DNA from: Porticoccaceae bacterium
GTDB lineage: Bacteria > Pseudomonadota > Gammaproteobacteria > Pseudomonadales > Porticoccaceae
Length of the DNA stretch: 53,937 bases
Reading direction: 5' to 3'
Assembly (NCBI GenBank): GCA_029242085.1
Contig: JAQWUP010000077.1
Coordinates: 1 to 53,937 of the forward strand
Shown here: piece by piece, positions 4,687 through 6,943 of the stretch
Position numbering within the stretch: position 1 is the first letter of the stretch
How the letters are laid out: each line of letters starts with the position of its first letter
The notes under the pieces: model-generated
Told to the model about the DNA's origin: nothing
What the model saw: the letters and a program-made list of their open reading frames with translations, nothing else
The model's database searches: none
Position numbers and translations under genes: made by a program

Positions 4687-5331
4687 ATGGCCAACCGACA
4701 GCTATCAGCTATAGACCAACTGCTTACTCAGCTCGATCAAGGGCTGCGCACAGCATTCGCCAGTGCGCCATCTCCACAGCGAGCATCTCCAGCGATAACG
4801 CTAGAGGATACTGAGCTGTCAGAGCAAGAGCGTAACCATGCGGTCGGGTTAATGCGTGTCAATCATGCAGGTGAGGTCTGTGCTCAGGCGCTTTATCAGG
4901 GACAGGCTCTAACAGCTAAACTACCTGAAGTCAGTGAGCAGATGGAGCATGCCGCAGCAGAAGAGATTGATCATTTGGCCTGGTGCGAAGAGCGCATTAC
5001 TGAACTCGGTGGAAATACCAGTCTACTCAACCCGATTTGGTATGCCATGTCTTTTGGCATTGGTGCTGGTGCGGGTTTGATCAGTGATAAGCTCAGTTTG
5101 GGATTTGTCGCTGCCACCGAAGATCAGGTCTGTGAGCATCTAAAAACCCACCTCGATCAACTGCCCGTCAATGACCACAGGAGCCGCGCTATCGTCGAGG
5201 AAATGCTGGTTGATGAAGAGCGCCATGCCCAAAGCGCTCTAGATGCGGGGGGTCACCAGTTTCCAAAACCGGTTAAAACAATTATGACTGCGGTCTCTGC
5301 AGCCATGACAGGCAGCAGCTACCGACTCTAA
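4687..5331 (+). CDS. coq7: Demethoxyubiquinone hydroxylase (Coq7 family)
   Basis: Di-iron monooxygenase that hydroxylates the ubiquinone ring precursor in aerobic quinone biosynthesis, membrane-associated. The 214 residues show the two carboxylate-bridged iron-binding modules: [20 protein letters not shown] with [13 protein letters not shown], and later [12 protein letters not shown] with [12 protein letters not shown]. The C-terminus [13 protein letters not shown] is typical. Its stop overlaps the stop of the convergent LysR gene by four bases. Neighbouring OsmC and crp genes resemble the coq7-speD-OsmC-vfr-trpC order of Pseudomonas, but no speD is present here. Confidence 0.95.
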
Positions 5332-6299
5332 AGCGCAGCGCTATCCGCCGCCAGATCCTTATCCCACTCACGAATAAGCCCGACGATTTTATCGGCAAGC
5401 CAGCGATGAATCGGGGAGCCAGAGGTTCTCTTATGCTGCAACAATACCAGCGAAATAGTGCCTTCATGCGGTAGCTCAGCCGGGTAGCGCTTGCGCACAA
5501 TACGGTACATTTCCCGCTCCATCGTCAAACCATACTTGGCCGCAACCATAAGGCAGTCAGTGTCACAGACTGTTTCCATCGCTGTCATTAGCTGATTGGT
5601 TACCATGGCCTTTTTGCGTTTGCGACCAAGATCGCGAAGTACTCGATCAAATCGGGCATCGGTTCTGGCACTGACTCGCTTGGAGATAAGTAGGTAGTAC
5701 TGCACAAAGGGATATTCGAGGATTTCATCCAATGTCACACGGGACTTGCTGGCCAACGGGTGGCCCTCTCTCATCCAGATAGATGGAGTGAAAATTGCCA
5801 AATTTCGGGCACTGATATCCTCGGTAATTCCTTTTTCAATATCAATGGCAAAATCCAGCACACCATCAGCCAGTTCCCCTTCTACAGTATCGGTTTCACT
5901 GGAGATTGATAGGATAACGCCCGGGGCATATTGGGTAACAACTTTGGTAAGTTCTGATACTAGCGAGATGGCTACAAACTCTGGCACTGCAATGGTGATT
6001 TCACCAACATAGGCCGCGGGGTCAAACTCCCCCTCACTCACTATCTCTAAAATATTTTCCAGTAATCTCGGCAGACGCATTTGTAGGTCTCGCGCCTTGG
6101 GCGTAGGCACTAACTCATTTCCTGTTCTGGTAAACAGCGGGTCATCCAATTGATGTCTCAACCGTTGTAGAACTCTACTCATGGCAGGCTGAGTGATAAA
6201 GAGGCGCTGAGCGGCTCTTGTCACACTCTTTTCCTCAAGCAGTGCCTGAAGAGAGACCAGTAAATTGAGGTCGAGACGAGATAGTTTTTGTAGATTCAT
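5328..6299 (-). CDS. LysR-type transcriptional regulator
   Basis: A 323-residue LysR-family regulator. The N-terminal winged helix-turn-helix spans about residues 8-66, with [20 protein letters not shown] as recognition region and [15 protein letters not shown] following. The rest is a periplasmic-binding-fold effector domain with no recognisable ligand specificity. It is transcribed away from a short gene at 6430, with a perfect T-N11-A palindrome (6339-6353) only 40 nt from its start codon, the classic arrangement for an autoregulated LysR protein that also controls a divergent target. A second copy of the palindrome lies at 6727-6741. The regulon proposed here is inference. Confidence 0.92.
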
Positions 6300-6338
6300 G
6301 GCTAAAATCCTTAGTCATTACCTAGGCGCATATAGTTG

Positions 6339-6353
6339 ATGCAAACAATGCAT
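6339..6353. promoter_or_regulatory. LysR-type operator box, copy 1
   Basis: ATGCAAACAATGCAT is a perfect inverted repeat (ATGCA, 5-nt spacer, TGCAT) that fits the LysR T-N11-A rule. It lies between the divergent LysR gene and the 36-codon gene and abuts the -35 box of the rightward promoter. The same 15-mer occurs again at 6727-6741. Confidence 0.6.
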
Positions 6354-6382
6354 TTGGATTATGACATGAGAACGCCTATATT
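6354..6382 (+). promoter_or_regulatory. Promoter P1 of the small-gene unit
   Basis: TTGGAT and TATATT are separated by exactly 17 nt, placing a transcript start near 6389. The LysR-type palindrome sits directly upstream, in a position expected for activation through the -35 region. Confidence 0.55.
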
Positions 6383-6429
6383 GTCACCCATAGAGCGATA
6401 GCTCTTCAAATTAACCAAGGAGATACACC

Positions 6430-6540
6430 ATGACACTCGTTTATATATTGATCGGTTTTACCGGCCTAGCGGGTGCTGCAATTGCGAAAGACGATTTCGT
6501 TAAGTTGGAAGCACCTAGAATGGACGCTTCTGAAAAGTAA
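6430..6540 (+). CDS. Small membrane or exported protein, 36 residues
   Basis: An open frame of 36 residues with a strong Shine-Dalgarno (AAGGAGA, 6418-6424) six bases before ATG. It starts MTLVYILIGFTGLAG, a single hydrophobic segment ending AAIA, followed by a charged tail (KDDF...DASEK). This resembles either a tiny single-span membrane protein or an exported peptide. It is the first gene behind promoter P1, next to the LysR operator, and is followed by about 130 nt of untranslated sequence and an intrinsic terminator. I do not recognise the family. The ribosome binding site and the framing promoter and terminator support its being real. Confidence 0.6.
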   Translation: MTLVYILIGFTGLAGAAIAKDDFVKLEAPRMDASEK

Positions 6541-6644
6541 GGCCCTCGGTCACGAAACAATGTGACCCAGCTTAGTTTACAGATGTACCAAATTCGTAGT
6601 ACCCCGCATTACCCCTCTTAATCCTTGCTATAGGATTCTTTTAC

Positions 6645-6672
6645 AGGGACCCACCAGGGTCCCTATTTTTTT
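6645..6672 (+). terminator. Intrinsic terminator of unit 1
   Basis: Arms AGGGACCC and GGGTCCCT close a 4-nt loop (ACCA) and are followed by A and seven T. It ends the transcript carrying the 36-codon gene, about 105 nt beyond its stop codon. Confidence 0.9.
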
Positions 6673-6726
6673 GCACCCAACCTTTTTATATCCAATAATG
6701 CGGTATTACCAAAATGCATTACATGA

Positions 6727-6741
6727 ATGCAAACAATGCAT
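6727..6741. promoter_or_regulatory. LysR-type operator box, copy 2
   Basis: An exact second copy of the 15-nt palindrome found at 6339-6353, again continuing into TTGGAT. A further ATGCAT half element lies at 6714-6719. It is inside the 403-nt gap between the small gene and the OsmC gene, immediately upstream of promoter P2. Confidence 0.6.
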
Positions 6742-6770
6742 TGGATTTATGGGCCTTAAGTTTTTATTAT
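6741..6770 (+). promoter_or_regulatory. Promoter P2 upstream of a non-coding unit
   Basis: TTGGAT and TATTAT are separated by 18 nt, with the second LysR-type palindrome directly upstream. The layout copies promoter P1. A transcript start near 6777 is predicted. Confidence 0.5.
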
Positions 6771-6776
6771 GGACCC

Positions 6777-6901
6777 AAGTTATTCGTTACAGATTTTAGA
6801 GAGGTTGCTGAGAGGCGAGCTTTCAAAGTTTCACCCCTTACCCCTTCTTTGCGTTTCATCCAAAGATTCTTTCAGGAGCCTACCCTAGGCTCCTTTTTTT
6901 T
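6777..6901 (+). ncRNA. Candidate small RNA of about 125 nt, sibling of unit 1 3' region
   Basis: The stretch between promoter P2 and an intrinsic terminator has no credible open frame. It shares three 8-mers in the same order with the untranslated part of unit 1: TTACAGAT (6577 and 6787), TTACCCCT (6609 and 6838) and GATTCTTT (6634 and 6865), the last a short distance before each terminator stem. The C-rich run ACCCCTTACCCC could pair with G-rich ribosome binding sites. Existence and boundaries are inferred; it could also be a decayed duplicate. Confidence 0.45.
6874..6901 (+). terminator. Intrinsic terminator of unit 2
   Basis: Perfect 9-bp arms AGGAGCCTA and TAGGCTCCT close a CCC loop and run into eight T. 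There is no gene on the plus strand just upstream other than the proposed small RNA, so the terminator itself argues for a transcript here. Confidence 0.9.
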
Positions 6902-6943
6902 GCCTGTTGCTTTTCACCCCAGAAGAGAAGCCAGTGGTTACCA

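Follow-up and report, generated by a model that had tools for sequence, protein, structure and literature searches.

Putative tandem sibling small RNAs beside a LysR-type regulator gene in the SAR92 clade

Two adjacent units, at 6314-6672 and 6702-6902 of the window (the whole stretch of 53,937 nucleotides analysed here), each have a promoter with a long LysR-type control box and, farther along, a C-rich segment left single-stranded, which is followed by a short hairpin and an intrinsic terminator. We consider it likely, with a probability of roughly three in four, that they encode two sibling, LysR-controlled and partly dual-function small RNAs (sRNAs) acting in trans in an anti-Shine-Dalgarno manner. 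This reading builds on the paralogy, conservation and covariation of the units, on the privacy of their box and on coding constraint in a peptide carried by one of them, all of which are visible in the sequences compared. By its named relatives the window belongs to the SAR92 clade (HTCC2207, Porticoccaceae), whose members are common marine heterotrophs. As a pair, the RNAs appear to belong to a regulatory RNA family that has not been described; no described sRNA of SAR92, HTCC2207 or Porticoccaceae was found in the open-licence literature, and neither the window nor any of 20 related loci reached the gathering score of an Rfam family.

Two units sharing a promoter and a 3' module

The gene neighbourhood comprises coq7, a divergent LysR gene, an OsmC-family gene and CRP. 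The LysR-type regulator (Pfam HTH_1 and LysR_substrate) is encoded at 5328-6299 on the minus strand, divergent from both units, which lie on the plus strand. An earlier note on this DNA had described a duplicated palindrome leading into two promoters, and in fact the window has just two perfect copies of ATGCAAACAATGCAT, at 6339-6353 and 6727-6741. The first copy lies inside the control box of unit 1 (6314-6362; GTCATTAC...GCAT...ATGCAAACAATGCATTTGGATTATG) and the second inside that of unit 2 (6702-6749). Read by eye, both palindromes have a promoter, TTGGAT (6354-6359) and TATATT (6377-6382) with a 17-nt spacer in unit 1 (6354-6382), and TTGGAT (6741-6746) and TATTAT (6765-6770) with an 18-nt spacer in unit 2 (6741-6770); a plain sigma-70 scan listed neither, none of its 4 sites (3.8 expected) being one of these two. 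The predicted transcripts, 6389-6672 for unit 1 (peptide and sRNA 3' part) and 6777-6902 for the non-coding sibling, have estimated ends, and both fold better than shuffles (z -3.60 and, for 6777-6901, -3.55).

The 3' part of unit 1 is a type A module (6592-6672), with the C-rich ACCCCTCTT at 6611-6619, a hairpin AATCCT/AGGATT at 6620-6637 and a terminator at 6645-6664 followed by a T tract, whereas that of unit 2 is of type B (6821-6902), in which the C-rich run (6833-6846) is kept, the hairpin differs (CTTTG/CAAAG, 6847-6865) and the terminator at 6874-6894 is again followed by a T tract. The two terminators are those that the earlier note had placed at the unit ends; the terminator scan is weak by itself, because 2.2 terminator-like sites would be expected in 2.5 kb and it returned 4. 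The pieces said to be shared were likewise recovered in the same order, namely a 47-nt box region (72%), TTACAGAT, a segment with TTACCCCT and, by eye, GATTCTTT, while the 36-codon frame at 6430-6540 is confined to unit 1 of the window and the middles of the two units differ.

In order to compare the modules, a covariance model, R1, was made of 51 type-A 3' ends, 44 from first units and 7 from the second units of species in which both modules are type A, and it contains no type-B sequence. Unit 1, a member of the training set that is also in alignment A1, scores 84.9 bits; unit 2 is detected with an E-value of 3.4e-7 in the window and 1.4e-5 in the whole genome. At E<=0.001 the two units are all that R1 finds in their own genome (83% complete). 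Since a model free of type-B sequences detects unit 2, the likeness of the units is not due to chance, and they are siblings as regards both the promoter and the 3' module.

Conservation of the C-rich segment and covariation of the stems, which the earlier note had proposed as checks, are both observed. The type A core AACCCCTCTTAATCCTTGCTATAGGATT is close to invariant, with the C-rich segment among its most conserved letters, and a hairpin follows this segment in 84 of 85 modules folded separately, the exception being the second unit of one locus (L088). In alignment A3 (98 distinct rows), 97.5% of 1169 cells are paired and 12 of 13 pairs have changed on both sides, with 0 of 500 shuffles on all five measures, figures to be read knowing that the covariation alignments were fitted to the model and lean toward the structure. 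Alignment A5, obtained from A3 by adding 16 unlinked and 2 linked matches of the sister genus g31 and 3 of g34 and by removing the 13 weakest A3 rows (E>0.001), has 13 of 13 pairs changed on both sides, with 0 of 500 shuffles on four measures and 26 of 500 on the fifth. The terminators used for choosing 3' ends were selected for perfect stems, a choice that favours helix 2 and did not extend to helix 1. When RNAalifold was run on plain MAFFT alignments, 10 pairs were called for type A and 3 for type B, a low yield which we think is due to gaps shifting the stems.

A control box private to the locus

In addition to the palindrome, 89 distinct promoters have GTCATTAC and GCAT upstream in common; the sites were chosen by palindrome pattern and -10, and the conservation of the letters used for choosing is in part a product of this selection. 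When the box ATGCANNNAATGCATTNGNANTA was searched genome-wide with at most one mismatch, 66 matches were obtained in 37 of 39 genus genomes and none lay off the locus, 58 of them being checked or set by LysR coordinates and the remainder placed by locus coordinates. Two-mismatch matches elsewhere are scattered, and the reversed-pattern control gave 2 matches in all. From these sequences, the strongest sites of the LysR regulator appear to be these units alone. The earlier proposal that the adjacent LysR protein controls the units thus holds as far as the box is concerned, which is private to the locus and also kept before most inspected unlinked copies in the sister genus; binding by LysR is putative. 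The unit 1 box is overlapped by a sigma-70-like promoter that points at lysR (6358-6387, minus strand; its -10 is preceded by TG), and given this overlap there may be competition between lysR and unit 1, or co-regulation of the two.

Relatives of this LysR are present in 91 of 98 sampled Porticoccaceae genomes, covering all 14 genera. Its nearest solved sequences are LysR-type regulators (E about 1e-21), and the best NCBIfam models among 25 of the 42 families listed were BsrA, YidZ, CitR and LelA, all far below their cut-offs. At four further loci (L125-L128; LysR 36-38% identical) a similar box lies about 40-200 nt upstream of the LysR relative and is followed by a different putative structured RNA, with CCATCCAGGTCC near a hairpin and a terminator AACCCGCC.

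Distribution of the units and position of the peptide

Interval DNA matches 34 of 35 genus genomes, its own included, and 0 of 21 genomes of other families. R1 gave the same 34 of 35, with at least two matches in 31 genomes, one in three and none in one (G012, the genome also lacking a DNA match, is 71% complete). Accordingly, the second unit, whose conservation in relatives the earlier note had made a touchstone, is kept: 31 of 35 genomes have at least two related putative sRNA genes. All genus matches are at the LysR locus bar one extra in G025 (L344, C49:3232-3310), a module without a visible box which may be a relic.

The peptide of unit 1, MTLVYILIGFTGLAGAAIAKDDFVKLEAPRMDASEK, is preceded by a Shine-Dalgarno stretch AAGGAG at 6417-6422. 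Among 38 distinct peptide sequences, pairwise differences over the first 24 codons number 2560, 729 and 6012 at codon positions 1, 2 and 3, a bias which fits real coding sequence, so that translation is predicted. With one hydrophobic stretch by hydropathy, and with an AIA-K/W-DD motif, the 36-residue peptide is probably membrane-inserted. It has no Pfam or NCBIfam match; in a search of 145 genomes of the order it matched 5, three of its own family strongly and two of another family weakly and inside long frames.

A survey of 53 loci (the window and L049-L100) gave box-peptide-module-box-module in 26 (one box, that of L075, was missed by the script and seen in other analyses) and box-module-box-peptide-module in 9, one of them with three units. 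Three more read box-module-box-peptide with the last module not found, six have two modules and no peptide, one is cut by a contig end, two (LSUCC0057 and kin, g27) have the peptide with a single module, and in six, all g31, nothing was detected. The peptide may sit in unit 1, in unit 2 or nowhere, both RNA modules staying, in agreement with the earlier suggestion that the promoter and the non-coding 3' part, and not the peptide, are what is kept in duplicate. Peptide-free loci include genomes of 1.3-1.4 Mb (G005, G008, G010, G034); genome size alone does not decide the loss, because the 1.3 Mb drafts G027 and G126 (76-80% complete) keep the peptide.

These data bear on the idea that the units are small mRNAs for the peptide, the 3' module being only a terminator or stability element and the peptide-free units decayed copies. 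Coding constraint would be expected from it, as would the recurrence of the peptide with the module even where both are unlinked from LysR in g31. We nevertheless regard it as unlikely, since the six loci with two modules have no peptide at all (a seventh is cut by a contig end), a unit with box and module but no peptide is present at each of the 45 loci outside g31 and g27, and the C-rich segment, which termination would not need, is held so constant.

Outside the genus, 54 of 55 LysR-bearing genomes were taken in (in G074, left out, the LysR gene begins at a contig end). Across these 54 stretches, which represent 13 other genera, R1 gave 58 matches at E<=1, and 54 of them are on the strand divergent from LysR and no more than 1.5 kb away from it, where by our estimate from stretch lengths about a third would be expected by chance. 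Matches upstream of LysR occur in 42 of the 54 stretches and in at least one genome of each of the 13 genera, five of these being represented by one genome only. Many single family-level scores are weak, and for such matches (E 0.001-1) position counts as much as the score does; in a model-fitted alignment 13 of 13 weak matches took the expected place, but their loci come largely from the same genomes. The C-rich segment in these genera reads TACTCCCTC or CCTCCTAACCCCCTGTA, which we take to be close to the anti-Shine-Dalgarno sequence of 16S rRNA.

In g31 the units are gone from the LysR side in most genomes, a match beside LysR being found in 3 of 12 stretches, one of them at E 0.43. R1 matches at E<=0.1 are present in 11 of 12 g31 genomes, and in 10 of 12 a match at E<=0.001 is on a contig other than that of LysR, these genomes being drafts in which long-distance linkage is still possible. 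Of 27 g31 matches 2 are beside LysR, and among 19 inspected of the other 25 the motif AT[AG]CATT lies upstream of the module in 15; the remaining four comprise two weaker variants read by eye, one cut by a contig end and one without motif, which is probably a false match. With the true boxes counted, this short motif has 29 occurrences in the 50,396 nt searched on the two strands of these loci; a single case therefore carries little weight, yet the positions agree. G090, G117 and G107 have two strong copies each, at separate places, and some unlinked copies have peptides such as MEIVYGAMIFSCVLLAAIATQDFMSS. Judged by their sequences, the g31 copies argue that the units are independent, box-controlled RNA genes.

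Some loci deviate further. Three or more module matches were seen at L182 and L339 (three near LysR in G077; five in the genome of G109), suggesting that the cassettes expanded in some genomes. Very short peptides reminiscent of that of SAR92, MFIPTMFALYFALIGMIAWDDYQNSQ and MFIASMFGLYFALIGLIAWEDFQS, lie near the box at about position 130 of L122 and position 145 of L123, upstream from the LysR start. In the region 127-490 upstream of the LysR start of L119, one unit contains a tandem pair of peptide genes of this type, and a C-rich RNA unit stands farther out behind its own box.

Proposed mechanism and comparison with known systems

In the mechanism that we infer, which covers transcription, LysR binding and its sign, use of Hfq, targets and peptide function, each sRNA would be driven by its own LysR-box promoter, with the adjacent LysR protein as the most likely controller; LysR would sense a ligand and both RNAs would be made. 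The 3' module, with its unpaired C-rich segment, short hairpin, U-rich stretch and strong terminator, has the layout of Hfq-binding sRNAs. Sequence and alignments display a U-tract terminator with a U-rich stretch before it, as in Hfq-dependent trans-acting sRNAs, and 38 of 39 genus genomes encode Hfq. The C-rich segment, which presumably resembles the anti-Shine-Dalgarno end of 16S rRNA, would pair with ribosome-binding sites and lower translation. Unit 1 would also be the mRNA of a membrane-type peptide, and consequently a dual-function RNA in which the peptide is a movable passenger.

Targets were sought by seed complements (AGGGGT, AGAGGGGT, TAAGAGGGGT) near ATG across the genus genomes. 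AGGGGT was found 105 times, against 54 for the reversed pattern, an excess which ordinary ribosome-binding sites would give. TAAGAGGGGT was found in 17 of 39 genomes, and of its 23 listed places 9 are the antisense of the sRNA itself; a further place concerns a 129-residue frame in G019. When 21 of the listed seed places were examined, 5 preceded a long frame: a DUF3604 gene in the own genome, hydantoinase B in three genomes and, by eye, a protein with a J-domain-like end. Two candidates were rejected, the DUF3604 gene, whose 12-nt match in the own genome is missing, under the same pattern, from a near relative (G009), and an accessory LysR gene, which has an 11-nt match in 3 of 3 carriers with copies 93-100% identical and is missing from 36 of 39 genomes. 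Pairing with ribosome-binding sites, as first suggested, is plausible from the sequence, and the seed-complement searches near ATG in the 39 genus genomes yielded, among the places listed, no conserved mRNA target.

The absence of a conserved partner from these searches, together with an invariant segment that is short and C-rich, would also suit protein sponges or ribosome decoys that do not pair with specific mRNAs. One C-rich segment per RNA, or two in many type B modules, would be unlike the known multi-site sponges, and we consider this explanation quite improbable. A self-contained peptide switch, with the peptide's ribosome-binding site controlled by the C-rich segment of its own RNA or of the sibling, is suggested by the minimum-energy fold of unit 1, where the Shine-Dalgarno stretch of the peptide pairs with the C-rich segment just before the 3' hairpin. 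The peptide start was rejected as an RNA target, its duplex energies being no better than shuffles (mean z -0.41 with the sibling and +0.63 with the own module, 33 modules each); moreover, energies with the lysR start region are similar or lower and the C-rich segment remains where the peptide is gone, which leaves such a switch slightly less probable still.

Returning to two trans-acting siblings, we tentatively hypothesize, at somewhat less than even odds, that this family-wide LysR acts solely via small RNAs and micropeptides, its strongest sites being interchangeable RNA cassettes (box, optional membrane peptide, fixed anti-Shine-Dalgarno module), which duplicate, swap the peptide between siblings or lose it with both RNAs retained, and can leave the regulator's side together with the box.

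Parts of this design have precedents. In E. coli, the LysR genes gcvA and oxyR are divergent from the sRNA genes under their control, gcvB and oxyS, as the SAR92 LysR gene is from its units; each of those systems has a single sRNA and is not known to include a peptide or tandem siblings. SgrS/SgrT is a dual-function sRNA in which small protein and base-pairing part are on one RNA, in contrast to SAR92, where the peptide changes unit between species and a sibling goes without it. The siblings NgncR_162/163 of Neisseria are adjacent and obstruct ribosome-binding sites with single-stranded segments, according to the available text of the source (PMC9973317), and the SAR92 siblings are likewise adjacent and have a single-stranded segment proposed to act on such sites. 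The same text gives 78% identity for the Neisseria pair, whereas the SAR92 siblings share promoter and 3' module only, and the portion available mentions neither a LysR neighbour nor a peptide (PMC9973317).

The closest design is that of VtlR/LsrB with AbcR1/AbcR2 in Rhizobiales, in which, by the available portions of the papers, the LysR gene adjoins tandem sibling sRNAs with short C-rich anti-Shine-Dalgarno motifs, the regulator directly activates one sRNA and also small-protein genes, and the siblings can be unlinked, as in Brucella (PMC7486931, PMC5461406, PMC8844928). The SAR92 LysR gene likewise adjoins tandem siblings with a C-rich segment of anti-Shine-Dalgarno type; the SAR92 units differ in belonging to another bacterial class and another neighbourhood (coq7-lysR-osmC-crp) and, as far as the accessible text of those papers goes, in having the box at both siblings and the peptide on the sRNA transcript. 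The VtlR consensus GCAT-N3-TG-N3-T, searched on either strand, is present in 8 of 89 genus promoters, and its 6 matches in the window (14.1 expected) include one in the unit 2 region (6718-6730, minus strand) and none at unit 1. We thus see a similar plan without shown homology and do not claim membership. If our reading is true, SAR92 would possess a conserved RNA regulator that has a transcription factor to itself and persists even in genomes of 1.2-1.4 Mb, the changing place of the peptide would offer a natural series on how dual-function RNAs arise and come apart, and the whole would stand as a parallel to the rhizobial VtlR-AbcR design.
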